Source: Pseudomonadota bacterium (lineage in GTDB: Bacteria; Pseudomonadota; Gammaproteobacteria; Steroidobacterales; Steroidobacteraceae). From it: a stretch of 37,492 nt of DNA. A program made the translations under genes and the position numbers. This document shows, in pieces, positions 18,079-34,847 of the stretch (position 1 is the first letter of the stretch; each line of letters begins with the position of its first letter). A model generated the notes under the pieces. That model did no database searches, was not told where the DNA came from, and saw only the letters and a list, made by a program, of their open reading frames with translations. Where the stretch lies: positions 1 to 37,492 of the forward strand of contig JAKCDC010000026.1 in NCBI GenBank assembly GCA_021838635.1. Direction: 5' to 3'.

Positions 18079-18224
18079 ATCTGCATTTGCGGCATGGGCC
18101 TCGCCTCGGCATCATGGCGCCCGACGGCGATCGGTCGCCTGTCGCGAGGACCAGAGATGACGACACCGCACGCCGTCGGGCGCCGCTCGACACGCTGGAT
18201 GACCGTGGCAGGGCGAGTCTTGAC

Positions 18225-21011
18225 ATGAGTGTCAAATCGGTCGCGCACACCACGTGTTACATGTGCGCCTGCCGCTGCGGCATCAAGGTGCATCTGGAGG
18301 ACGGCCGGCTGCGCTACATCGAGGGCAACCGCGACCATCCGATCAATCGCGGCGTGCTGTGCGCCAAGGGTTCGGCCGGGATCATGACTGCGCTCTCTCC
18401 GGCGCGCCTGCGCGGCCCGCTGAAGCGCACCGGTCCACGCGGTTCGGGCACCTTCGAGGCGATCTCCTGGGAGGAGGCGCTGCGGCTTCTGACCGAGCGG
18501 CTGACGGCGATCCGCGCGAGCGATCCGAATCGCCTGGCGCTGTTCACCGGGCGCGACCAGTCCCAATCGCTGACCGGGCACTTTGCGCGCATGTTCGGCA
18601 CGATCAACTTCGCGGCCCACGGCGGATTCTGCTCGGTGAACATGGCCGCCGCGGGACTGTATTCGCTCGGCGGGGCATTCTGGGAGTTCGGTGAGCCGGA
18701 CTGGGAGCACGCGCGGCTGTTCCTGCTGTTCGGGGTCGCCGAGGACCATGATTCCAACCCGATCAAACTCGGTCTTGCGCGCCTGAAGGCCCGCGGGGCG
18801 AAAATCGTCTCCTTCAACCCGGTGCGCACCGGGTACTCGGCGATCGCCGATGAGTTCATTGCGGTCACCCCGGGCACCGACGGACTGCTGGTGCTCGCCC
18901 TCATCCACTGCCTGCTTGAGGCCGGACAGATCGACACCGAGTTCCTGGTGCGCTACACCAACGCCCACCACCTCGTCATCGATCAACCGGGCAGCGCCGA
19001 GCACGGCCTGATCGCACGTGACGCCGAGGGCCGCCCGCTCGCCTTCGATCGCACCTCGGGCGCGCTGGTGGCGGCCGAGACCCTCGGCATCGACCCGGCG
19101 CTCGTCGGTCGCTTCACGCTACCGGAGGGCAGCGCCGCCCGTCCGGCATTCGCACTGCTCGCCGAGCGCTACAGCGAGCCGAGTTATGCTCCGGAGGCGG
19201 TCGCGGCGCGCTGCGGTGTCGCGGCCACCACCATTCGGCGCCTTGCCGCGCAGATCGCCGAGGCCGCCTTCCATCAGCCGGTCGTGCTCGAGCAGCCCTG
19301 GACCGACACGGCCGGGCGCCGTCACGAACGCATGGTCGGCCGTCCGGTGGCCATCCACGCCATGCGCGGGATCTCCGCGCACTCGAACGGTTTTCATTCC
19401 TGCCGCGCGATCCACGTGTTGCAAATGCTCCTCGGCGCCGTCGACACGCCCGGCTCGTGGCGCTACAAGTCCCCCTACCCGAAGCCCATCCCGGGCGGCG
19501 GTCCCCCGGGGCGCACCGTCGGGCCACCGGGCACACCGCTCGATGCCGCACCGCTCGGCTTTCCGCTCGGCCCGGAGGATCTGCTGGTCGATGCCGAGGG
19601 CGAGGCGCTGCGGCTCGACCGGGCCTTCTCCTGGGAAGCGCCGCTCGCCATCCACGGCCTGATGCACATGGCGATCGCGCGCGCCTTCGAGGCCGGCGCG
19701 CAGAAGATCGACACGCTGTTCCTCTTCATGTCCAACATGGCGTGGAACTCGGCCATGAACCCCGGCGAGACGACTCGCATGTTGAGCGCCACCGACGAAC
19801 ACGGCGAGTACCGCATCCCGTTCGTCGTGGTGGCCGACGCGTTCGCCTCCGAGACGGTCGCCTATGCCGATCTGGTGCTGCCCGACACGACTTACCTCGA
19901 GCGCTACGACTGCATCTCGCTGCTTGATCGGCCGATCGGCTCGGCGCACGGTCCGGCCGATGCGATCCGCGTGCCGGTGCTCGATCCCGGGCGGGACGTA
20001 CGGCCCTTCCAGGACGTGTTGATCGAGCTTGCCGGACGGCTGGGGTTGGCGGATTTCACCGCCGCACAGGGCGGCCCGCTCTACGCCTCGTACGCCGATT
20101 ACATCGTGCGCCATCAGCGCCGCCCCGGTATCGGCCCGCTCGCGGGCTTTCGCGGTGCCGACGGCACCGCCGTCGGGCGCGGTGAGCCGAACCCCGATCA
20201 ACTGCGCCGTTACGTGCAGAACGGCGGGTTCTGGTCGCAGCACCTGCCGCCGCAGCAGCTCTATTACAAGTTCGCCAACCGCGACTATCTCCTCGGTGCT
20301 CAGCAGATGGGGTTCATCGGGTCTGCCGACCCGATCGTACTGCAGCTGTACTGTGAACCACTGCAGCGGCTGCGGCTCGCGGCCGAGGGACACGGGCCGC
20401 GCGTGCCGCCACAGCGGCTGCGGGCGCGCATCGCGCGCTACTGCGATCCGCTGCCGATCTGGTACCTGCCGCTCGAGCAGTCGATGAGCGAGCGCTCACG
20501 CTACCCGCTGCACGCCATCACGCAACGGCCCATGGCCATGTATCACTCCTGGGGCTCGCAGAACGCCTGGCTGCGCCAGATCCTGCCGGAGAATCGCCTC
20601 TATCTGCACCGCGAGCTCGCCGCCGAACTCGGCATCGAGGACGAGGACTGGGTCTGGGTCGAATCGCGCACCGGGCGCGTAAAGGCGCGGGCGCGCACCA
20701 TGAGCGGGGTGAACCGCCACACCGTGTGGACCTGGAATGCGGTCGGTAAGCGCGCCGGCGCCTGGGGCTTGAAGCCGGACGCACCGGAGTTCACCCGCGG
20801 GTTCCTCCTCAATCACGTGATCTCGGAGTTTCTGCCGGGCAGCGGCGCCGATGCACCACAATCGAACTCCGACCCGGTGACCGGACAGGCCGCCTGGTTC
20901 GATCTCACGGTCCGCCTCGAGCGCTGCCCGCCGGACAGCCCTGATGAGACCGCGCCGCGCCCCGGCGCCAATCCGCTGCGCATCAAGCCTCGCTCGGAGA
21001 AACCCACATGA
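18225..21011 (+). CDS. soeA: Cytoplasmic sulfite dehydrogenase molybdopterin subunit SoeA
   Basis: A 928-residue molybdopterin oxidoreductase of the DMSO-reductase superfamily. An N-terminal 4Fe-4S site is formed by C11, C14, C18 and C46, and the likely Mo ligand is C136 in AHGGFCSVNMAAAG, a SoeA-type signature. No Tat signal is present, consistent with a cytoplasmic enzyme. The family catalyses sulfite to sulfate oxidation at the inner face of the membrane, passing electrons through SoeB and SoeC to quinone. I chose ATG 18225 because homology begins 10 residues later. The frame is open upstream to a TTG at 18087, whose extra 46 residues look unstructured and start almost at the predicted transcription start. 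The gene overlaps soeB by 4 bp. Polysulfide or thiosulfate reductase activity is the main alternative. Confidence 0.87.
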   Translation: MSVKSVAHTTCYMCACRCGIKVHLEDGRLRYIEGNRDHPINRGVLCAKGSAGIMTALSPARLRGPLKRTGPRGSGTFEAISWEEALRLLTERLTAIRASDPNRLALFTGRDQSQSLTGHFARMFGTINFAAHGGFCSVNMAAAGLYSLGGAFWEFGEPDWEHARLFLLFGVAEDHDSNPIKLGLARLKARGAKIVSFNPVRTGYSAIADEFIAVTPGTDGLLVLALIHCLLEAGQIDTEFLVRYTNAHHLVIDQPGSAEHGLIARDAEGRPLAFDRTSGALVAAETLGIDPALVGRFTLPEGSAARPAFALLAERYSEPSYAPEAVAARCGVAATTIRRLAAQIAEAAFHQPVVLEQPWTDTAGRRHERMVGRPVAIHAMRGISAHSNGFHSCRAIHVLQMLLGAVDTPGSWRYKSPYPKPIPGGGPPGRTVGPPGTPLDAAPLGFPLGPEDLLVDAEGEALRLDRAFSWEAPLAIHGLMHMAIARAFEAGAQKIDTLFLFMSNMAWNSAMNPGETTRMLSATDEHGEYRIPFVVVADAFASETVAYADLVLPDTTYLERYDCISLLDRPIGSAHGPADAIRVPVLDPGRDVRPFQDVLIELAGRLGLADFTAAQGGPLYASYADYIVRHQRRPGIGPLAGFRGADGTAVGRGEPNPDQLRRYVQNGGFWSQHLPPQQLYYKFANRDYLLGAQQMGFIGSADPIVLQLYCEPLQRLRLAAEGHGPRVPPQRLRARIARYCDPLPIWYLPLEQSMSERSRYPLHAITQRPMAMYHSWGSQNAWLRQILPENRLYLHRELAAELGIEDEDWVWVESRTGRVKARARTMSGVNRHTVWTWNAVGKRAGAWGLKPDAPEFTRGFLLNHVISEFLPGSGADAPQSNSDPVTGQAAWFDLTVRLERCPPDSPDETAPRPGANPLRIKPRSEKPT

Positions 21012-21748
21012 CGATGTTGCCCGAGCGCGCCCCGGGGGCGCGCAAGATGGGTCTGGTAATCGACCTCGACACCTGTGTCGGCTGCCACGCCTGCGCTGTG
21101 AACTGCAAGGAATGGAACACCGGAGGCGAGGCCGGGATCCTGCCCGATTACGACAAGTACGGGGCGAACCCCGATGGGGTGTGGTTCAACCGCATTCACT
21201 CGTACGAGACCGACAGTCCCCAGCGCTCACGCACGGTGAACTTCCCGCGCTCGTGCCTGCACTGCGAGAACCCGCTGTGCGTCACGGTCTGTCCCACCGG
21301 CGCCTCGTTCAAGCGGGCCGAGGACGGCATCGTGCTGATCAACACCGACATCTGCATCGGCTGCAAGCTGTGCTCGTGGGCCTGCCCTTACGGGGCACGC
21401 GAGTTCGACGAGGACAACGGCGTGATGCGCAAGTGCACGCTGTGCATCGATCGGATCTACAACGAGGCGCTGCCCGAAGCGGAGCGCGAGCCGGCCTGCG
21501 TGGCCACCTGCCCGGCCAAGGCGCGACACTTCGGGGATCTGGCCGATCCGGCCAGTCCGGTGGCGAAGTTGGTCGAGGAGCGCGGCGGCGTGGACCTGCT
21601 CGCCGAGCTCGGCTACCGCCCAACCAACAAGTACCTGCCGCCCCGCCAGGCGCAGATCCCGAGCGGACCTGAGGAAACCCCAGCGCAACCGGCCCCGGGC
21701 GTGGGCGGGGCGCTGTTGCGACTGCTCGACAAGGCACTCAGTCGATGA
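21008..21748 (+). CDS. soeB: Sulfite dehydrogenase iron-sulfur subunit SoeB
   Basis: A 246-residue four-cluster ferredoxin. Its sixteen cysteines fall in four groups: C23/26/29/33, C83/86/91/95, C116/119/122/126 and C143/146/164/168. This is the pattern of the electron-transfer subunits of the DmsB/PsrB/SoeB family. It carries electrons from the molybdenum subunit to the membrane anchor. There is no signal peptide, matching a cytoplasmic orientation. Its start overlaps the end of soeA by 4 bp (ATGA) and its end overlaps soeC by 4 bp, so the three are translated together. The last 35 residues are a Pro-rich linker and a short helix that may contact the anchor. Confidence 0.92.
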   Translation: MTMLPERAPGARKMGLVIDLDTCVGCHACAVNCKEWNTGGEAGILPDYDKYGANPDGVWFNRIHSYETDSPQRSRTVNFPRSCLHCENPLCVTVCPTGASFKRAEDGIVLINTDICIGCKLCSWACPYGAREFDEDNGVMRKCTLCIDRIYNEALPEAEREPACVATCPAKARHFGDLADPASPVAKLVEERGGVDLLAELGYRPTNKYLPPRQAQIPSGPEETPAQPAPGVGGALLRLLDKALSR

Positions 21749-22680
21749 GACCGGCGGCCTCGATCCTGCTGCTGACGACGCTCACGGGGTTCGCCTACGG
21801 ACTGCTCGCATGGCTCGGTCTGTATGCCGCGGCCGGTGCCGCGGGCGCGGACCGTACCCTGATCCTCATCGGCGTCGGACTCGTCATCGTGCTCGCCACT
21901 GCGGGCCTGGCCACCTCGGCGCTGCATCTGGGTCGCCGTGAGCGCGCCTGGCGCGCCTTCAGCCAGTGGCGCTCGTCCTGGCTGTCGCGCGAGGGCGTCG
22001 CCGCGCTGTTCACCTATCCGGTGACGCTCGCGTTCGTGGCCTGCGTCTACCGCGCACCGCACGCCCCGCTCACCCGGCTCCTCGGGGCTGCGGCGACCCT
22101 CGCAGGCCTTGGCACCGTCTACTGCACCGCAATGATCTACGGGAGCTTGAAGCCCATCCGGCAGTGGCACAACCGGCACACCGCGCCCGATTATCTCATC
22201 TTCGCGCTGTTCTCCGGCGGCACGCTATTCGCGCTGCTGCACACCGTGGTGATCGGTACCGGGGCGTGGCCGGCGGCGCTCGTGGCACTCGCGGCCGCCG
22301 TGGCACTGCTGGCCAAGCTCGCCTACTGGCGCCACATCGACCAGCAGCAACCGCTCGCCACCCTCGCAAGCGCGATTGGAATGGCGCACGACACGGTCGT
22401 ACGGCCACTCGATGCACCGCACTTCACAGAGAACTTCGTGCTGCGCGAGATGGGCTTTCAGATCGCCCGGCGCCACGGCATGAAACTGCGGCGCATCGCA
22501 CTTGGACTCGGCTTCCTCCTGCCGCTGCTGCTGAGCCTGCTCGGCGCCGCCGGTGGGGTGCCGCTCGTGAGCAGCGCCCTCGCCGTCGCCTGCGCCGCGC
22601 TCGGGCTGCTCACCGAACGCTGGCTGTTCTTCGCTCAGGCGACCCACGTCTCGGCCCTCTATTACGGCCGCAGCGTCTGA
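21745..22680 (+). CDS. soeC: Sulfite dehydrogenase membrane anchor SoeC (DmsC family)
   Basis: A 311-residue integral membrane protein with eight or more hydrophobic segments, starting with ASILLLTTLTGFAYGLLAWLGLY and including CTAMIYGSLKPIRQWHNRHT, a region conserved in DmsC/SoeC anchors. It should anchor SoeAB to the cytoplasmic membrane and hand electrons to ubiquinone without haem. It overlaps soeB by 4 bp. The length and topology fit the family. The gene ends the operon; the MFS gene downstream is 505 bp away and probably independent. Confidence 0.9.
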   Translation: MRPAASILLLTTLTGFAYGLLAWLGLYAAAGAAGADRTLILIGVGLVIVLATAGLATSALHLGRRERAWRAFSQWRSSWLSREGVAALFTYPVTLAFVACVYRAPHAPLTRLLGAAATLAGLGTVYCTAMIYGSLKPIRQWHNRHTAPDYLIFALFSGGTLFALLHTVVIGTGAWPAALVALAAAVALLAKLAYWRHIDQQQPLATLASAIGMAHDTVVRPLDAPHFTENFVLREMGFQIARRHGMKLRRIALGLGFLLPLLLSLLGAAGGVPLVSSALAVACAALGLLTERWLFFAQATHVSALYYGRSV

Positions 22681-24523: not shown

Positions 24524-25420
24524 TTAAGCCCCCGAGCCTCTATTTCGCGCGTGCGCGAACAGCTGCTGCACTAGCGGCGAGGGACTGGTCCGGAACGCGG
24601 TGACGGCGTAGAAGTGCTCAAACACGCCAGGAATGGCGCAATAGCGCTGCAGACGCCCCTCGCGCAATTCGTCCTGGACCACCACCTCGGGCACCACCGC
24701 GACAGCACCTGAATCACGCGCGAACAGGCGCAGCATCGCCATGTCGTCGACTTCCGCGGCGATCTCGACCTTGATGCGCCTGCGCTCACACCACAAATCA
24801 AACTGAGTGCGCACGTCACTGCTCGGCCCGGGCAGCACCAGGGGCATTCCGACCAAGTCCTCAGGCAGCCGCAAGCGCCGGCGCCCGGCGCGCGGCGGTC
24901 CGATCAGACACACCGACTGGCGCGAAAGCGGCACGCAGCGCCACGGCCGCTCGGTCTCGGCTACCACCGGGCGGTTCGAGAGCAAAACATCGAGGTTGTG
25001 CACGCGCAGCTGCTCCAGCAGTTCGGCAAGACTGCCGGACTGCAGCGTCAGGCGGACTTCCGTGCGACTGAACAGCGGACGCAGCAGATTCTCCGTGAAG
25101 TTGCGTGACAGCGTGGCGACCACCCCGACGCGCAGGTGCTTTTGGCGCTGTCCGAGCCCGCCGCGCACCGTCGCCATCAGCTCCTGCCCGAGCCCGAAGA
25201 TGCTGTCGGCGTAGTCGAGCACCACGGTGCCGAACTCCGTCAGGTGCAACGAGCGCCCGGCGCGCTCGAACAGCGGCTGGCCGAGATACATCTCAAGCTG
25301 ACGGATCTGCGCCGACAGCGCCGATTGCGACACGCGCAGCTGCGCGGCGGCCTGGGTCAGATGACCGCGCTGCGCGACGGTCCAGAAATAGAGCAGATGC
25401 CTGAAGTTGAGATTTCTCAT
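24524..25420 (-). CDS. LysR-type regulator of the DAB operon
   Basis: A 298-residue LysR regulator. It has an N-terminal HTH (LTQAAAQLRVSQSALSAQIRQLEMYLGQPLFERAG, residues ~21-55) and an effector-binding domain from about 90. The sequence (NFRHLLYFWTVAQ...) belongs to the NhaR/CbbR-like part of the family. It is divergently transcribed from dabB across 97 bp, an arrangement used by LysR activators controlling the neighbouring operon. It may respond to inorganic-carbon status as CbbR-type proteins do, which is inference from context. A perfect 6+1+6 palindrome lies in the shared region. Confidence 0.9.
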   Translation of the reverse strand: MRNLNFRHLLYFWTVAQRGHLTQAAAQLRVSQSALSAQIRQLEMYLGQPLFERAGRSLHLTEFGTVVLDYADSIFGLGQELMATVRGGLGQRQKHLRVGVVATLSRNFTENLLRPLFSRTEVRLTLQSGSLAELLEQLRVHNLDVLLSNRPVVAETERPWRCVPLSRQSVCLIGPPRAGRRRLRLPEDLVGMPLVLPGPSSDVRTQFDLWCERRRIKVEIAAEVDDMAMLRLFARDSGAVAVVPEVVVQDELREGRLQRYCAIPGVFEHFYAVTAFRTSPSPLVQQLFAHARNRGSGA

Positions 25421-25433
25421 GTTCTTTTTTCTC

Positions 25434-25446
25434 GAACGATTCGTTC
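25434..25446. promoter_or_regulatory. Candidate LysR operator between the regulator and dabB
   Basis: GAACGA-T-TCGTTC is a perfect inverted repeat. It is followed by two direct copies of TTCTATTT (25444-25451 and 25453-25460) in AT-rich DNA. LysR regulators bind such sites between divergent genes, and the repeats after the palindrome may be the activation site near the dabB promoter. Confidence 0.5.
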
Positions 25447-25517
25447 TATTTATTCTATTTTACAGATCTTCCTCGTCCGCGAATACTCCCTCGCGTCGCC
25501 CGCCCCCCGGAGTACGC

Positions 25518-27083
25518 ATGCTGCATCACCCGCACTGGACCGCCTGGCTCGTTCCGCTGCTCTACCTGCTCGGCGCCACCGCCGGCGCGCTGCGCCGCCG
25601 CGCACTCTGGCCAGCGCTCGCGTGGGCCTCGGGCAGCGCGCTCGCAGGAGCGCTCGCCGGGGACATCAGCCGCCTGGTGCCGGATCTGGCATTCGGTCCG
25701 CACAATGGTCCGGCTGCCGCGGTGATGACCTTGATCACGTTTTTGGGCTGGATCATCGCGCGCTACTCGCGCGGCAATCTCGCCGGCGAGGCCGGTGAGC
25801 GGCGCTTCGTGTGCGCCTTGCTGCTGACGCTCGCCGGTGTGAGTGCCGTGGTGGCGGCGCGTAACTTCGCCGTGTTGGTGCTGACCTGGGCCGCCAGTAG
25901 CGCCGCGCTGCACCCACTCCTGACACACTACCGCGAGCGGCCCGCGGCTCGCATCGTTGCGCGCAAGAAATTCCTCGCCAGCCGGCTGGCCGATGGGTGC
26001 CTGCTCGGCGCGGCGCTGCTGCTCTATAGCCGCTGGCACACCCTTGGACTGACACCCCTGGCGCGGATGATCACCACTCATGGCGCGAGCGGCCCCGAAG
26101 CGCAGTGCGCCGCGCTGTTGCTCGCCGCGGCCGTGCTGTTGAAATCGGCTCAGCTACCTCTGCACGGCTGGCTGGTACAGGTCATGGAGGCGCCGACCAG
26201 TGTCTCGGCTCTGATGCACGCCGGCGTGGTTAATCTTGGCGGCTACGTGCTGATCCGCCTCGCCCCGCTGATCAGCGCATCGCTGCCGGCCCAGGGGCTG
26301 CTGGTGATCGTCGGCAGCACGACCGCAGCGCTCGCCGGACTCACCCTGATGACCTGTCCCACGCGCAAGACACGCCTTGCCTGGTCGACCTGCTCGCAGA
26401 TGGGGCTGATGGTCGCCGAATGCGGTCTGGGACTGTACGGCCTGGCCCTGCTGCATCTGCTCGGCCATGCGCTCTACAAGGCGCACGCGTTCCTCTGCTC
26501 GGGCGAGGCGGTGCGCGAGAGCGCCGAGGTGCGCATGGGAGCTGAACCGCGATTGCGCGCGCCGTACGCGCCGCTGCTCGGGCTCGCACTTGCCGCCGGC
26601 CTGGTCGCAGGCTCGGCGCGCCTGTGGCACACCGTCGTGCGCGCCCCGACGGTGCCCTGGATCGCACTGCTGGTATGCACGCTCGGGGTCGCTACGCTGC
26701 TGTGGGACGGTGTGCCGAGTCTCGCCACCCGGACCCGCAACCTCCTGGCGGCCGCCCTCGCCGTACAGCTGTATCTGCTCTGGCACTTCACGATGAATCG
26801 GGGCCTGGGTGTCCCCTCGGCCCACCCGGCGCCGCTGCTGGCGCTGTACGGCGCGCTCTGTGTGGTCGGGCTGTACTGGGCACAGGGGCGCCTCTGGCGC
26901 GCCGGCGCCGCGACGCGCCACTCGCGCCTCTACTCGCGCCTCTACGTATGGGCCGCGGCCGGGTACTTCCTCGATGAGCCGGTCACGCGGCTCGTCACGT
27001 CGCGATGGCCCTGGTGCGGCGTGCGCCGCCTGGACAGACGCCTCGGCCCGTGGCTGGCACCGCACGAACGGGGCGCGGCGTGA
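25518..27083 (+). CDS. dabB: DabB: ion-conducting membrane subunit of the DAB inorganic-carbon system
   Basis: A 521-residue polytopic protein of the NuoL/MrpA (ND5-like) family. The conserved antiporter-type core is visible: K209 in LLKSAQLPLHGWLVQVMEAPTSVSALMHAG, with H216 and H234. Followed directly by DabA, it is assigned as DabB, which couples H+ or Na+ movement to CO2 hydration by its partner. The start ATG 25518 gives a first membrane helix at LVPLLYLLGATAGAL. An upstream frame is open but contains the promoter. It lacks the other complex I subunits nearby, so it is not part of a Nuo operon. It overlaps dabA by 4 bp. Confidence 0.92.
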   Translation: MLHHPHWTAWLVPLLYLLGATAGALRRRALWPALAWASGSALAGALAGDISRLVPDLAFGPHNGPAAAVMTLITFLGWIIARYSRGNLAGEAGERRFVCALLLTLAGVSAVVAARNFAVLVLTWAASSAALHPLLTHYRERPAARIVARKKFLASRLADGCLLGAALLLYSRWHTLGLTPLARMITTHGASGPEAQCAALLLAAAVLLKSAQLPLHGWLVQVMEAPTSVSALMHAGVVNLGGYVLIRLAPLISASLPAQGLLVIVGSTTAALAGLTLMTCPTRKTRLAWSTCSQMGLMVAECGLGLYGLALLHLLGHALYKAHAFLCSGEAVRESAEVRMGAEPRLRAPYAPLLGLALAAGLVAGSARLWHTVVRAPTVPWIALLVCTLGVATLLWDGVPSLATRTRNLLAAALAVQLYLLWHFTMNRGLGVPSAHPAPLLALYGALCVVGLYWAQGRLWRAGAATRHSRLYSRLYVWAAAGYFLDEPVTRLVTSRWPWCGVRRLDRRLGPWLAPHERGAA

Positions 27084-29566
27084 GCGGCCCGGCGACACAC
27101 CCAATGCGACAGCGCAGCCCGAGTCTGCACCGTGCGGCACTCGAGGCGGCCTGCCGCACCATCGCGCCCGCCTGGCCGCTCGATCGCCAGGTCGCGGTCA
27201 GCCCCTACTGGGGCTATCGAGCGCTGCCCTTCGGCACGACGGCCGAGCGGCTGCAGCGCCTCTGCGGCGCGCCGCTGACCTGGGCGCGCCCTCAGTACCT
27301 GCACGCCTGGCAAGAGGGACAGATCGAGCGGACGCACCTCGAGCAGGCCCTGCGCGAACAGCCGGTGGTCGCCAGTATCGCGGCCGCCGTGCGGGCGCTC
27401 GAGCAGCCGGTTGCGGCCGCGGAGGGACTGCCGCTGCTCAGCGACCGGCTCGACGCCGATCCGCTCCGGTGCGGCGCGATTCCCTGGCGCCTGCGCATCA
27501 CGGAGCAGATCAGCGAGTACTGTGCGGCCTACTTCGACCGGCTGCAGACCGACGCAGCGCCGCAGCGCCGGCTCGGGCTGTTCGCGGGCTGGCGCGCGGC
27601 GCTGCTTGAGGATCAGCGCTTGCGTCCGCTGCACGGACGCGCTGCACAGGTGCCCGAGCAGACCGACGCGGCGCTTCACTGGGCGCTCGATCGGCTGGCC
27701 GTGCGCGATACACAACTGGCCGAGCTGCTCGAAGTGATTGCCCGGCGCATCGACGGCTGGGCGGCCTGGTGCGCCTACTTGCGCTGGGAGGCGGCACTTG
27801 CCGGGGGCGCGGATGATCACTTGGCGCAGTTGCTCGTGATCCGCCTCAGCTGGGAGGCGCTGCTACACGACGGGCGGCACGATGTGCGCTCCGTATGGTG
27901 GGACTGGCTCAAACAGTGGAACGCCGCGATCACCGCCCAGCCCCCTGTCTCCCTTGGTATCGACCTGCTTTGGCAGCGCGCGCACGAGATCGCCTATCAG
28001 AGCCGTCTCTTCGGTGCGCTCGCCGCGCCCCACGAGGCGGGCCCCGCCGCACAGCCCGCCGCGCCGCGCGCACAGCTCGTGTTCTGCATCGACGTGCGCT
28101 CAGAGCGCATGCGGCGCGCCGTCGAGCAGACCGATTGCGGCGTGCGCACGTATGGGTTTGCAGGCTTCTTCGGTCTGCCCCTGCGCTACACCCCGCTCGG
28201 GACCTCGCTCGAACAGCACCAGCTGCCCGCACTGTTCGCTGCGACGCTCAGCGCAAGTGACACGAGCGGAAGCACCAACACAGACCAACGGCTCGCCGAC
28301 CGGCGCCAACGGACACTGCAGCGGCGCGCGAGCCTGCAACCGTTCTCGCGTCTGCCGACCGGCGCATTCAGCACCGTGGAGATCCTCGGCCTCACCTATC
28401 TGCCAAGGTTACTCGCTCGCACGTTCGGGCGCGCGCCGCAGAGCCCCGCACACATCGGACTCAAACGCGCCGAGCACGCTTCGCTCCGCCCGCAGCTGAT
28501 CGGCGGTGGCCCCGACACACTCGCCGAACAGGCGCAGCTCGCGGCGCGCATCCTGCGCGCCATGGGACTCCAGCGCCCCTCGGCCCGACTGCTCGTGCTG
28601 ATCGGCCACAATGCACGCACCGCCAACAACCCACAGGCCGCCGCGCTCGCGTGCGGCGCCTGCGGTGGTCACAGCGGCGAGGTGAACGCGCGCACGCTGG
28701 CTGGCCTGCTGAACGATCCGGCGGTGCGCCATGCACTCGCCGGCCACGACGTATCGCTCCCGGAGGACACGGTGGTGATCGCCGGGCTGCACGACACCGT
28801 GACGGACACCGTCGAGTTGTTCGCCCCGCCGCAGCTTCCGGCCAGTCACGCAGCGGAGCTTGAGCAGCTGCGCGACACGCTACGGCGCGCCGGCGCGCAG
28901 GTACGCCGCGAGCGTGCCGCCGATCTGGGGCTTGCGCATCTTGGGGGACGGGACTCGGCTCTGCTGCGCCGACTGCAGCGGCGCACACGCGACTGGGCCG
29001 AAGTGCGGCCCGAGTGGGGGCTTGCAGGCAACGCGGCGCTCATCCTCGCACCGCGCGAGAGGACCCGTGGCATCGATCTTCAGGGACGGGTCTTCCTGCA
29101 TGAGTACCACGCCACGGAGGACCCCGACGGCGCACTGCTTGAGCAACTGCTGGCCGGCCCTCTGCTCGTGGCACACTGGATCAACCTGCAGTACTACGGC
29201 TCAACCGTCGATCCGCAGCGCTTCGGCAGCGGTGACAAGCTGCTGCACAACGTGCTCGGCGGGCGCATCGGGGTTCTCGAAGGACACAGCGGGGACCTGC
29301 GCATCGGACTGGCGCGCCAGTCCGTGCACGACGGCACCGCCTGGCGACACGCGCCGCTGCGCCTGACGGTGCTCATCGATGCGCCGCGCGAGCGGATCGA
29401 ACGGATCGTCCAGCGCCAGTCCGACGTGCTGCAACTGGTCGAAAACCAATGGCTGTACCTGTACCGCCTGTGCGAGCCGTGCCCCGAGCGCCTGTTTGAT
29501 CCGCACCGCGCACGGCACGCCACCAGATCCGCAGCCCTCGAGGAGTCCTCAGAGGTGCAGGTATGA
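27080..29566 (+). CDS. dabA: DabA: carbonic-anhydrase-like subunit of the DAB system (DUF2309)
   Basis: An 828-residue DUF2309 protein. By comparison with Halothiobacillus DabA the zinc-site residues are C336 and D338 (CIDVRSE), H510 (LIGHNARTANNP) and C525 (CGACGG). The spacing matches the known C351/D353/H524/C539 with a shift of 14 to 15 residues. DabAB is an energy-driven CO2 hydration pump: CO2 entering the cell is converted to bicarbonate, which cannot leave, and feeds RuBisCO. GTG 27080 overlaps the dabB stop (GTGA). An ATG 24 bp further in is also possible. The protein is peripheral on the cytoplasmic side of DabB. Its stop overlaps cysD by 4 bp. Confidence 0.95.
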   Translation: MSGPATHPMRQRSPSLHRAALEAACRTIAPAWPLDRQVAVSPYWGYRALPFGTTAERLQRLCGAPLTWARPQYLHAWQEGQIERTHLEQALREQPVVASIAAAVRALEQPVAAAEGLPLLSDRLDADPLRCGAIPWRLRITEQISEYCAAYFDRLQTDAAPQRRLGLFAGWRAALLEDQRLRPLHGRAAQVPEQTDAALHWALDRLAVRDTQLAELLEVIARRIDGWAAWCAYLRWEAALAGGADDHLAQLLVIRLSWEALLHDGRHDVRSVWWDWLKQWNAAITAQPPVSLGIDLLWQRAHEIAYQSRLFGALAAPHEAGPAAQPAAPRAQLVFCIDVRSERMRRAVEQTDCGVRTYGFAGFFGLPLRYTPLGTSLEQHQLPALFAATLSASDTSGSTNTDQRLADRRQRTLQRRASLQPFSRLPTGAFSTVEILGLTYLPRLLARTFGRAPQSPAHIGLKRAEHASLRPQLIGGGPDTLAEQAQLAARILRAMGLQRPSARLLVLIGHNARTANNPQAAALACGACGGHSGEVNARTLAGLLNDPAVRHALAGHDVSLPEDTVVIAGLHDTVTDTVELFAPPQLPASHAAELEQLRDTLRRAGAQVRRERAADLGLAHLGGRDSALLRRLQRRTRDWAEVRPEWGLAGNAALILAPRERTRGIDLQGRVFLHEYHATEDPDGALLEQLLAGPLLVAHWINLQYYGSTVDPQRFGSGDKLLHNVLGGRIGVLEGHSGDLRIGLARQSVHDGTAWRHAPLRLTVLIDAPRERIERIVQRQSDVLQLVENQWLYLYRLCEPCPERLFDPHRARHATRSAALEESSEVQV

Positions 29567-31377: not shown

Positions 31378-32160
31378 TCAGCCGACGGTATATCGCGCGA
31401 GATGCAAACGCACTGTCTCCCGATAACCCTCCGCGCTCGTCACCGTCGCACCGCCGCTGAGCACCAGGATGTAATCGCCACGGCGGGTGCGGCTGATCCG
31501 GCGCACGTGGTTGAAATTGACCAGACAGGAGCGGCTGACCCGCAGCAACGGTTGGGTGCCCAGCGCTTGCTGTGCCGCGCGCAGCGTCGCTCGCAGAATG
31601 TGCGCCTCGGAGCCCACATTCAGTCTGACGTAATTGCGTTCGGCGCTCGCCGCCTCGATCTGCTCGGCATCGAGCACTTGCCGGTCACTGCCGGTCCCGA
31701 CGACTAGACGCGGCCGACGGGCAACGCGTGCCGCGCGGGCCCGCTGCAGGTGCTCGAGCGCCGCCTCCAGTGCCTCTTGACGCGCCGCACTGCGCTCGGC
31801 CCTCAGGCGCCACCGGACGCGCTCGAGGGTATCGTGAAAGCGCGCCGCGTCGAACGGCTTGAGCAGATAGTCCGCTGCGCTCAGTTCGAACGCTTGCGCC
31901 GCATAGCGCATATGGGCCGTAACGAAGACCACCACAGGCGGCCGGGGCGCCTCCAGCGCACGGGCCAGCGTCACGCCATCGAGTGCATCCATCTCAATAT
32001 CGAGAAAGATCGCATCCGGAGGCGTGCTCTGCACGGCCTGCAGCGCTGTGTGCCCGTCCGCATACTCCCCAAGAATCTGCAGATCCGGTTCGGCGGCACA
32101 ATATTCGCGCAGCAGCCTGCGGCCAGAGGCCTCGTCATCCACGATCATCGCCGTCAGCAT
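31378..32160 (-). CDS. LytTR-family response regulator
   Basis: A 260-residue regulator. The receiver domain has acidic pocket D8/D9, phosphoacceptor D54 (IFLDIEMD), T81 and K101 (LLKPFD). A linker at ~115-150 is followed by a LytTR DNA-binding domain (~155-258; IEAASAERNYVRLNVG, LLRVSRSCLVNFNHVRRI). ATG 32160 begins exactly at the receiver strand; the longer open frame upstream overlaps the kinase end. It is 13 bp from the kinase stop and surely pairs with it. LytTR regulators of the LytR/AlgR type bind pairs of 9-10 bp repeats spaced about 21 bp apart. Such a pair lies upstream of the kinase gene. Confidence 0.93.
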   Translation of the reverse strand: MLTAMIVDDEASGRRLLREYCAAEPDLQILGEYADGHTALQAVQSTPPDAIFLDIEMDALDGVTLARALEAPRPPVVVFVTAHMRYAAQAFELSAADYLLKPFDAARFHDTLERVRWRLRAERSAARQEALEAALEHLQRARAARVARRPRLVVGTGSDRQVLDAEQIEAASAERNYVRLNVGSEAHILRATLRAAQQALGTQPLLRVSRSCLVNFNHVRRISRTRRGDYILVLSGGATVTSAEGYRETVRLHLARYTVG

Positions 32161-32173
32161 CGATCGCCCCTCC

Positions 32174-33286
32174 TTACAGGCTCGGTGCGCCGCCATCCGC
32201 TCCGAGCAGTGGCAGATGAATCTCCGCGGTCCACTCCCCCGGCTGTTGCGCCGCCACCCGTATCCTCGCCCGCTCCCCAAAATGCAGCGCGAGTCGATGA
32301 CGCACGTTCCGCAGCCCGATCCCCTCGGCACGGTCCGCCTCGCGCTGTGCCGCGGTGTTGATCACCCGCAGCGTCAGCTCACCCTCGGCGGCCACGACTT
32401 CCACGCGGATCCACACCGCCCCGTGGTGACCGCGCAGACCGTGCACGACGGCGTTCTCGACCAGCGGTTGGAGAATCAGGCTCGGCACCCATACCCCCGG
32501 CAGCCCGGCCGCCGTCGGCACATTCAAGCGCAGCCGCTCGGCGAACCGATGTTGCTGCAACGCCAGGTACTGATGCGCGAAGCGGATTTCGGCCTCGAGC
32601 GGCCAGAACTCCCGTTCGCTGGCGCTGAGCAGCTCGCGCAACACCTCGCCCAACATCGCCACCAGCTCCCGGGCGGCCGTTGGATCCCAACCGATCTGAC
32701 CTTGCAGGGTATGCAGCAGATTCAACAGCGAGTGCGGCGAGAGCTGGGTGCGCAGCGTCGCCAGACGCGCCGCCAAGAGCGCCCGGCGCAACGATGCCGC
32801 CTGTGTCTCCTCTTCGCGCAGCGCGCGGCCCATCTGGCACGCCCAGATGAGTGCGAGCGCAAACGCATAGGCGAGCAGAAAGCGCGTGACGCTCGAGAGC
32901 CAGAGGCTCGCCTCCAGGGCGGCAGCGCGCCAGAGGGAAGCGACGGCGACATGGGGAGCGGCGGCGAGATCGCCTGTGACCCACTCCCCGAGCAGCAAGC
33001 CCGGCGCGGCAAGAGCGGAAAATCCCAGCCCGAGCGCTAGCTGCACGGGCACTTGGCGCGCGTACGGCCGCCAGCCGAGGCGCTGCGAACCCCAAAGACA
33101 GCCGAGCAGGACCGGGTAGAGCAGCAGGTGCGCGATCAGCTGCGGTCCGCAAGGGGCGAATACGGTTTTCACACGCATCGCCGAGAGCGCGGCCTGAGTG
33201 CTTGTGGCCTGCAGAACGTCCGTGCCGGTGACATACGCCCAGAACACGCTCACCAGCACGAGCGGCATGCGGATGCGGCAGCTCAC
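32174..33286 (-). CDS. LytS/AlgZ-type membrane sensor histidine kinase
   Basis: A 370-residue sensor. The N-terminal half has about four membrane segments and little periplasmic sequence (LIAHLLLYPVLLGCLWG, VQLALGLGFSALAAPGLLLG, FLLAYAFALALIWAC). The His_kinase-type domain follows with LSPHSLLN (H185), LQPLVENAVVHG (N278) and GIGLRNVRHRL. The H-box differs from the usual NPHFLFN, but the His is kept. The start is GTG 33286, or ATG 33268 just before the first helix. This kinase family lacks a long sensor loop, so the signal may be within the membrane. It is the first gene of a two-gene operon with the response regulator. Confidence 0.9.
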   Translation of the reverse strand: MSCRIRMPLVLVSVFWAYVTGTDVLQATSTQAALSAMRVKTVFAPCGPQLIAHLLLYPVLLGCLWGSQRLGWRPYARQVPVQLALGLGFSALAAPGLLLGEWVTGDLAAAPHVAVASLWRAAALEASLWLSSVTRFLLAYAFALALIWACQMGRALREEETQAASLRRALLAARLATLRTQLSPHSLLNLLHTLQGQIGWDPTAARELVAMLGEVLRELLSASEREFWPLEAEIRFAHQYLALQQHRFAERLRLNVPTAAGLPGVWVPSLILQPLVENAVVHGLRGHHGAVWIRVEVVAAEGELTLRVINTAAQREADRAEGIGLRNVRHRLALHFGERARIRVAAQQPGEWTAEIHLPLLGADGGAPSL

Positions 33287-33395
33287 CTGAGGCGCCCCGC
33301 CCCCGGGTGGCTCTTGCCCCTGATCTGCATCGGCCCTCCCTCACGCTGCGCGTCTGGACCTCCGCCGCCACCGATCCGGCCTCGGAAGCGCTGGG

Positions 33396-33426
33396 ACGAA
33401 CTCGTCGATGGCAGGGACGAATTCGT
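33396..33426. repeat. Two palindromic 10-bp sites 21 bp apart, candidate LytTR operator
   Basis: ACGAACTCGT (33396-33405) and ACGAATTCGT (33417-33426) are near-identical, each preceded by GGG. The second is a perfect palindrome. The centre-to-centre distance is 21 bp, two helical turns, as for LytTR-domain regulators. They lie 110-140 bp upstream of the kinase start (minus) and ~250 bp upstream of the borosin methyltransferase start (plus). The rest of 33287-33678, the 392-bp divergent intergenic region, contains no gene I can support; its open frames lack ribosome-binding sites. Confidence 0.55.
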
Positions 33427-33678
33427 TGGGTCGCTTATTCCCGAAGGCTGCCACAAAGTGTCTCATATCTTTATGGCCCCGGAAAAACCAGAAACGCCGG
33501 CGTACGGCGCGGCCACGGCCTTCGTTGCGCCCCGCGGGCACGCCGTCACGACGTCTCGGCTCGCTTCGGCTGACACTGCCCCGATACTGTTTCCGCTGGG
33601 AGGCGGCGCGCATCGGGTCCCGTCGGCCGCCAAAACTCGTCCGCTTTTTTGTCCTACACCACGACAGAAGAGGCTGCC

Positions 33679-34593
33679 ATGAATGGAAAATTGACCGTGG
33701 TCGGCACCGGAATGACCGCAATCAGTCAGCTCACGCGCGAAGCGGAGCATTGCCTGTTCACGGCCGACAAAGTGTTCTATCTGCTTACCGACCCGCATAC
33801 CGAGGGCTACGTCAAACAGCTCAATGCATCGGCCGAATGCCTCAAACGCCACTACGAGCACGGCAGCGGAAAACCCCGACTCTGGGCCTACCAGGACATG
33901 GTGGAGACGCTGCTCGCCCCGGTGCGCCAGGGTCAGTCGGTCTGCGCGGCGTTCTACGGCCACCCCGGCGTGTTCGTCTACCCCTCGCACGAGGCGATCG
34001 TCCAGGCGCGTCGCGAAGGCCACGAGGCGAAGATGCTGCCGGGGATTTCGGCCGAGGACATGATGGTGGCCGATCTGGGCATCGACCCGGCGCTGCCGGG
34101 CCTGCAGACCTACGAGGCCACCGGCTTCGTGCTATTGAAACCGACGATCGACGCACGCATCCCGCTCGTACTGTGGCAGATCGGGGTCGTCGGCCTACTC
34201 ACACCCGAGGCGCACCCGTCGCGCAGCAATCTCGGGGCACTCACCGAGATTCTGCTGCGCAGCTACCCGAGCAATCACCAGGTGGTGCTCTACCAGGCCT
34301 CCGCGTACGAGAACATCGCACCGGTCCTGCACGTGTTCGCGCTGCGGGATCTGGCGCGGCAGGACATCAATGCACTGAGCACACTGTACGTTCCGCCGGG
34401 ACAGCATGCCGATCCGGACCCGAGTCGGGCCGAACTGCTCGGAGTGCGCCTGGCCGACCTGTCGCTGACGCACACCCAGGGCGGTGCCCGCGTTCCGGGG
34501 CAGGCGTATGGAATCACCCATCCGGAAAAACCCGGCTGGGTGACCGCGGCGCAGGGCTGCGGCGCGGCAAGCGCCGAGTTCGCCGCAGGCTGA
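33679..34593 (+). CDS. Borosin-type peptide alpha-N-methyltransferase (TP-methylase fold)
   Basis: A 304-residue SAM-dependent enzyme of the tetrapyrrole-methylase fold. Several segments closely match borosin backbone N-methyltransferases (OphMA, SonM): VVGTG (7-11), DKVFYLLTDPHTEGYVKQLNA, GKPR...Y (64-71), FYGHPGVFVYPSHEA (92-106), MLPGISAEDMM, ADLGIDP, QTYEAT and LYVPP (236-240). R67, Y71 and Y93 correspond by offset to OphMA R72, Y76 and Y98 as I recall them. A cobalamin or sirohaem methylase is unlikely: those lack the YGHPGVFV...PGISAED combination. The C-terminal ~60 residues contain no hydrophobic core peptide, so this is the enzyme of a split system. ATG 33679 follows GAAGAGG. The likely substrate is the small ORF 107 bp downstream. 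Confidence 0.9.
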   Translation: MNGKLTVVGTGMTAISQLTREAEHCLFTADKVFYLLTDPHTEGYVKQLNASAECLKRHYEHGSGKPRLWAYQDMVETLLAPVRQGQSVCAAFYGHPGVFVYPSHEAIVQARREGHEAKMLPGISAEDMMVADLGIDPALPGLQTYEATGFVLLKPTIDARIPLVLWQIGVVGLLTPEAHPSRSNLGALTEILLRSYPSNHQVVLYQASAYENIAPVLHVFALRDLARQDINALSTLYVPPGQHADPDPSRAELLGVRLADLSLTHTQGGARVPGQAYGITHPEKPGWVTAAQGCGAASAEFAAG

Positions 34594-34700
34594 AGCGTAG
34601 CGGCGAGCAGACCGCGCACGGGGCAGGCCCGAAGAGTTTGGAAGGAATAACCGGGGCAGGAACGCCCGCAATCCCACCGTCAAATCAGAGGAGATCAGCA

Positions 34701-34847
34701 ATGACCATGCGAACCCCTGTGTTAGGCATCGACATCGGCAGCTGTGGACGCGTGCTGTACAGCGACGCTCCGTCACACCGGCTGCTGCGCGCCAACGAAA
34801 CTGCGCTCTCGCCCGAAACGAAGGTCGTGATCGTGCTCGTGCTCTGA
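34701..34847 (+). CDS. Candidate borosin precursor peptide (48 residues)
   Basis: ATG 34701 has a strong ribosome-binding site (AGAGGAGA, 34687-34694). The product has a mixed leader (LGIDIGSCGRVLYSD, RLLRANETALSPE) and ends in KVVIVLVL, an all-hydrophobic beta-branched tail strongly like the N-methylated core of omphalotin (WVIVVGVIG...). It lies directly after the methyltransferase gene, with a 23-bp-arm hairpin terminator starting 50 bp after its stop. Known type IV borosin precursors carry a larger helical binding domain of about 60-70 residues; this one has none that I recognise. It has one cysteine (C15). The alternative is a chance small ORF, but position, ribosome-binding site, terminator and tail together argue against that. 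Confidence 0.75.
   Translation: MTMRTPVLGIDIGSCGRVLYSDAPSHRLLRANETALSPETKVVIVLVL

Follow-up and report, generated by a model that had tools for sequence, protein, structure and literature searches.

The window examined here, a stretch of 37,492 nucleotides on contig JAKCDC010000026.1 of a Steroidobacteraceae genome, very probably encodes a split borosin system without a borosin-binding domain (BBD): a 304-residue peptide backbone alpha-N-methyltransferase and a separate 48-residue peptide whose hydrophobic tail, VVIVLVL, would be methylated, under predicted control of a LytTR regulator and apparently in the place taken by an UrcA-family gene in sister genomes. Comparison of sequences across loci points to this reading through the enzyme family and its active-site residues, a partner open reading frame (ORF) of fixed length, the lack of a detectable BBD, and a conserved regulator pair with its repeat. 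The initial annotation had proposed a split borosin locus, and the enzyme family, active site and fixed-length partner bear this out.

The enzyme gene spans 33,679 to 34,593 on the forward strand and contains the motifs YGHPGVFV, PGISAED, GKPR..Y and LYVPP on which the initial annotation had based its assignment. It is not a chance ORF, with 5,218 relatives at E ≤ 0.001 among 7,996 scored candidates. The nearest solved structures are MroMA1, OphMA and SonM, the identity to the catalytic domain of the fungal OphMA and MroMA1 is 34-38% (VIA alignments), and in sequence and fold the protein is a borosin methyltransferase domain. Alignment to SonM pairs SonM Y58/R67/Y71/Y93/F99/E146/W166/Q167 with Y59/R67/Y71/Y93/F99/E146/W166/Q167 of the 304-residue enzyme, and the counterparts of the active-site residues Y58, R67, Y71 and Y93 are all invariant in a 14-row alignment of the clade. 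The ratio of nonsynonymous to synonymous differences (pN/pS, Nei-Gojobori) for the enzyme was 0.04-0.19 in close pairs and 0.18-0.27 in distant pairs.

The Pfam label of the enzyme is PF00590 (TP_methylase), and there are weak matches to YabN and cobalamin models, as a divergent tetrapyrrole or corrin methylase with an unrelated small ORF beside it would show. We consider this explanation extremely improbable. Eight NCBIfam tetrapyrrole models matched, all under cut-off (best 46.5 bits vs 525), and both tree and fold group the protein with borosin enzymes; clustering with tetrapyrrole methylases, the outcome that the initial annotation had named as fatal to its assignment, was not observed, and the profile and structure comparison that it had called for places the enzyme, by score as well as fold, on the side of OphMA, MroMA1 and SonM and well away from tetrapyrrole methylases. 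The same genome encodes two further PF00590 proteins, CysG-like and RsmI-like as judged from sequence, and the 48-mer is conserved beside the enzyme.

For locus comparisons we used the best 80 of 129 relatives of the enzyme, with 39 of these 80 loci in one enzyme tree and 24 in the other; L025 was excluded from both (L025/L010 and L017 each carry half of a single gene split between two contigs of genome G023). SonM fell in a branch other than that of the 304-residue enzyme in the 24-locus tree, in which the bootstrap had not settled and two outgroup rows sat on very long branches.

The partner ORF, at 34,701 to 34,847 on the forward strand, begins 107 nt past the enzyme stop and follows a Shine-Dalgarno-like AGAGGAG read from the sequence at 34,687 to 34,693. 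The initial annotation had described a small ORF with a hydrophobic tail after the enzyme, which proved both real and conserved. A search of 58 genomes of the genus found a borosin enzyme in 13, comprising 10 of this lineage and three with a SonM-like enzyme. All 10 lineage loci (L001-L009, L017) carry the partner as a separate ORF adjacent to the enzyme, each exactly 48 aa long and 100-145 nt past the enzyme stop, preceded by GGAG in nine and by AGGA in L008. Loss of the small ORF where the enzyme is kept, which was to have counted against the assignment, was therefore seen in none of the 10 same-genus genomes. Because the C-terminal end of the 304-residue protein, AAQGCGAASAEFAAG, contains no hydrophobic core, and the 48-mer lies in another frame past a stop, this is not a fused borosin of types I-III.

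A 48-mer profile search of 5.8 billion proteins, which admits only 0.55-1.75 times the query length (about 26-84 aa), returned 17 hits among 22 candidates, all of 48 aa and including the window's own. The two shifted forward frames contain a stop in 10/10 and 8/10 loci, and pN/pS of the 48-mer was 0.18-0.46 in seven of eight close pairs. A 21-row alignment showed M1, R4, G13, G16, R17, R30, A31 and P38 to be invariant and the last seven residues to be hydrophobic and mostly branched (VVIVLVL, VVVVLVL, IIVVVVI, ITVVLVA), some tails containing Ser or Thr (e.g., ISITIVL). By analogy with SonA residues 62-71, residues 42-48 (34,824 to 34,844) are the predicted core and would be the substrate for methylation.

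The invariant R4, G13, G16-R17, R30-A31 and P38 could also suit a small folded protein, and with the missing BBD and a low-confidence fold they would fit a 48-mer that is a small regulator or partner of a true borosin enzyme whose substrate is encoded elsewhere in the genome. We regard this as unlikely given the hydrophobic, mostly branched tail at a fixed C-terminal distance, the presence of 48-mer and enzyme together in 10/10 genomes, and a search of the window's own genome in which no BBD-type precursor was detected elsewhere (best E 0.65).

An iterated BBD profile, applied to the 3 kb on either side of the enzyme, matched a BBD-type ORF at 62 of 71 distant borosin loci, on the same strand at 60, and at none of the 10 lineage loci (best E 9.3). 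The nine distant loci with no match were L040, L045, L054, L059, L061, L072, L073, L076 and L080. The leader of SonA is described as a five-helix BBD of residues 1-53, followed by a core at residues 62-71 (PMC8429565). As that source presents the type IV SonM/SonA pair of Shewanella oneidensis, it resembles the system in the window in having a discrete enzyme of the same fold, with the same main active-site residues, and a small neighboring ORF for a precursor whose C-terminal core is hydrophobic. It differs in that SonA carries a BBD and SonM has 263 aa, whereas the precursor here has 48 aa and no detectable BBD, and the enzyme is about 45 residues longer at its C terminus and occupies a separate branch of the tree. 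The fungal OphMA and MroMA1 have a similar catalytic domain, but they carry core and clasp on the enzyme polypeptide itself, and here the core has a gene of its own. Borosins are classed in PMC11395268 as types 0-X plus XI, with BBD-less split systems as Class 4. The architecture in the window, with separate enzyme and core and no BBD in the cluster, fits Class 4 (Xu et al. 2024) by the definition in the Figure 1 legend of that paper, and could belong to one of the named types (V-X). BBD-less split borosins are already a named class, and the system in the window belongs to the family but not to type IV, lacking a detectable BBD in its precursor.

The additional residues form a lineage-specific extension (residues 258-304; 34,450 to 34,590 on the forward strand), recognized in the clade alignment, with the consensus R.PG.AYGITHPE.PGWV. 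R271, Y277, G278, P282, E283 and V288 are invariant in the 14 rows, which include P0028, and the motif was absent, judged by eye, from 18 distant enzymes inspected. The AlphaFold2 (AF2) predicted local distance difference test (pLDDT) score was 53, 66, 79, 53 and 38 in successive 10-residue blocks from 261-270 on. Recognition would act through a short leader of residues 1 to about 37, with the extension perhaps taking over leader reading from the five-helix BBD. Reading of the leader by the extension would explain the invariant length of the 48-mer, which fits a measured distance from recognition site to active site. The AF2 model of the 48-mer, at low confidence, has short strands and one helical turn, with no helix bundle.

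Divergent from the enzyme lies a histidine kinase (PF06580; 370 aa, GTG start; 32,174 to 33,286, reverse strand), identified by domain match and conserved position, followed by a gene annotated as a LytTR response regulator (260 aa from the first ATG, two residues longer in one listing; 31,378 to 32,160, reverse strand). The kinase adjoins the enzyme in 10/10 lineage loci and the regulator is present in all 10, partial at a contig end in L021; neighbors beyond this pair vary. No relative of the pair was found at E 1e-8 at the 71 distant borosin loci. Weak receiver-domain matches to the regulator at seven of them (L055, L067, L075, L077, L082, L084 and L085; E 1e-3 to 1e-6) were taken as general response-regulator similarity.

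The intergenic region between kinase and enzyme contains, in 10/10 lineage loci, a direct repeat of 21-bp period, which in the window is an operator-like GGGACGAA-N13-GGGACGAATTCGTT at 33,393 to 33,427 (forward strand). The chance expectation for a paired GGGACGAA with up to two mismatches in the window is 0.02. Across the 58 genomes, GGGACGA-N14-GGGACGA-NN-TCGTT occurred once per genome in exactly the 10 lineage genomes, and the backwards-pattern control gave 0. The general binding site of LytTR regulators is described as a pair of imperfect direct repeats separated by about 12 bp (PMC4064291), and two such repeats stand here beside a LytTR gene. AlgZ/AlgR and other LytTR systems covered in that source likewise combine a LytTR regulator and partner kinase with direct repeats at about 12 bp, AlgR's own sites being said there not to follow the general spacing; the predicted target here differs in being a borosin operon. 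From the conserved arrangement, we predict the 21-bp-period repeat to be a binding site of the LytTR regulator, which would control the operon. Locus comparison also revealed a promoter-like block, GTGTCTCATA, at 33,458 to 33,467 (forward strand), +65 from the operator start. It is exact at +65 in 7/10 borosin loci, with near-matches of 9/10 letters in L023 (+65), 8/10 in L024 (+65) and 8/10 in L020 (+64). A candidate ORF 5' of the enzyme, starting from a conserved ATGG past this block, was rejected as a gene, its frame, length and stop differing across the 10 loci.

Relatives of the kinase were found in 48/58 genomes of the genus (E 1e-50) and of the regulator in 52/58 (E 1e-35, distant ones included). 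In an unrooted tree of 38 of the 60 kinase matches, the 10 borosin-linked kinases fell on one side of a branch with support of 100/100, and the remaining 28 comprised a weakly supported set of 11 (84/56) and a set of 17 (100/99). Within the set of 11, GGGACGA-N14-GGGACG lies upstream of the kinase in 10/10 loci with enough sequence (L108, L111-L113, L116, L118, L119, L121, L123 and L124), and each of these has an UrcA-like gene on the far side of the repeat. L109, with 296 nt upstream and no repeat, was excluded from this count. Five of five UrcA-like genes tested scored above the TIGR04433 cut-off. In these UrcA-side loci, the kinase and the 21-bp-period repeat are divergent from the UrcA-family gene. 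For the set of 17, six rows were fetched without flanks, and GGGACGA was found at that position in 0 of the other 11. There was no UrcA-like stretch at the 10 borosin loci, and TIGR04433 had no hit in the window's genome, the control matching in Caulobacter only. On the simplest reading, the regulator and repeat predate the borosin linkage, and the borosin operon sits in the urcA position. In Caulobacter, UzcRS is described as regulating urcA and responding to U, Zn and Cu (PMC8963506).

The joint occurrence of peptide, modifying enzyme, kinase, LytTR regulator and direct repeat in 10/10 loci would also suit an autoinducer sensed by the adjacent kinase, in a Gram-negative agr/com-like circuit. 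This closed peptide-signaling circuit looked strong at first and was then demoted to a rival that we now think improbable, because genomes that lack this borosin have a like kinase, regulator and repeat together with an UrcA-family gene. The kinase signal is therefore unlikely to be the peptide, and the association with UrcA elsewhere speaks for the takeover of a pre-existing regulated promoter rather than for a dedicated signaling circuit. The kinase is also of the PF06580 type, presumably not of the AgrC type, and no exporter was recognized beside the pair.

A second kinase copy was present in 8/10 borosin genomes, always in the set of 17. Its candidacy as a housekeeping two-component system was rejected, since the copy in the window's own genome (L128) has no regulator among ORFs of at least 150 aa in a 6-kb stretch. 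An additional regulator, 89% identical, lies on contig C234 of genome G008 and may be a contaminant. On G028:C203, a kinase fragment (61% identity) at the contig edge stands beside a regulator (55%), with no enzyme found in the genome; an assembly gap may account for the missing borosin pair.

Several observations weigh against a BBD-less split borosin in a former UrcA slot. SonM E173 is replaced by L173 in the enzyme. The 48-mer had a pN/pS of 1.56 in the close pair L005/L007 (few changes) and of 0.54-1.09 in five distant pairs, vs 0.04-0.27 for the enzyme, and its AF2 model has a pLDDT of 65.6 and a predicted template modeling (pTM) score of 0.29. The BBD negative is less than complete, as flanking sequence falls short of 3 kb on one side at 4/10 lineage loci (L025 stops within the enzyme gene, the downstream flank is 1.8 kb in L023 and 2.9 kb in the window, and the upstream flank is 2.1 kb in L021). 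The restriction of the repeat pattern to borosin genomes is partly a product of the pattern, because TCGTT is included in it; UrcA-linked loci likewise carry the shorter repeat. GTGTCTCATA is exact at +65 in only 1/10 UrcA-side loci (L108), the other nine matching 5-7 of 10 letters. No peptidase or exporter was recognized among the annotated neighbors; a search of the window's genome with PF00026 (pepsin-like peptidase) gave no match and was uninformative, as its control matched nowhere.

We propose that the LytTR regulator would activate the borosin operon, and that the S-adenosylmethionine (SAM)-dependent enzyme, a dimer as in SonM, would bind the separate 48-mer and methylate the backbone amides of its tail stepwise with SAM, some peptidase then releasing the tail. 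As a guess, the product could contribute to the response to envelope or metal stress. The fuller scenario, in which a short leader read via the enzyme extension replaced the BBD, the operon captured a kinase/LytTR promoter from an UrcA-family gene, and the N-methylated peptide is an envelope or metal-stress product, is tentative and on balance doubtful. To our knowledge, few roles of bacterial borosins are established. We found no publication on the borosin of this genus or on a regulator-borosin pairing among the titles and abstract openings listed from the open-licence PMC literature. Many borosin gene clusters and few mature products are described as known (PMC11395268). With its small parts list (an enzyme and a fixed-length 48-mer), no detectable BBD and a conserved regulatory input, the locus offers a clean system for BBD-less leader recognition, and the signal of a regulator whose sister-genome counterpart adjoins an UrcA-family gene offers an entry to function. 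If true, N-methylation without a BBD would aid peptide engineering.

Other borosin enzymes were encountered in these searches. Three other same-genus genomes (L012, L013, L014) have the SonM-like borosin near BBD-type ORFs that contain a Cys-Cys stretch followed by Glu/Asp-rich sequence, probably an independent acquisition. Among the 120 matches listed, 23 of 24 relatives of at least 430 aa have tandem borosin methyltransferase domains (P0015-P0027, P0029-P0032, P0039, P0042, P0044, P0046, P0063 and P0118); P0012 has one. The catalytic Arg and Tyr are kept in 21/23 first copies (P0022 has D at the Arg position and P0030 is cut there), and neither residue is seen in any of the 23 second copies, several of which are gapped there, which suggests a fused pseudo-dimer of an active and an inactive copy. 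L067 has two BBD-type ORFs upstream of a tandem-domain enzyme (8001 onward). Borosin enzymes of 42-48% identity in L028, L029, L033 and L035 lie on contigs binned as Thermoplasmata archaea and are either archaeal borosins or on mis-binned contigs.

The initial annotation had also remarked on sulfur-oxidation and carbon-concentration genes beside the borosin. That neighborhood is real, with DabA, DabB, a 3'-phosphoadenosine 5'-phosphosulfate (PAPS)-reductase-family protein and a molybdopterin oxidoreductase in the window and RuBisCO in its genome, but it is not a conserved association: a functional link was dropped, as L018, L019 and L025 are the only other loci with DabA/DabB and CysH. Downstream, YVTN-like and Rieske/VanA-type proteins are shared by the window, L018 and L019, L021 has another Rieske protein and an amino-acid permease, L023 a DsbA-like protein, and L019 and L024 a lipid A acyltransferase. 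Within the window, the DabB-like/DabA inorganic-carbon uptake pair occupies 25,407 to 29,566, and the molybdopterin oxidoreductase and further ORFs after it, which we take to resemble SoeABC, occupy 18,087 to 22,680.
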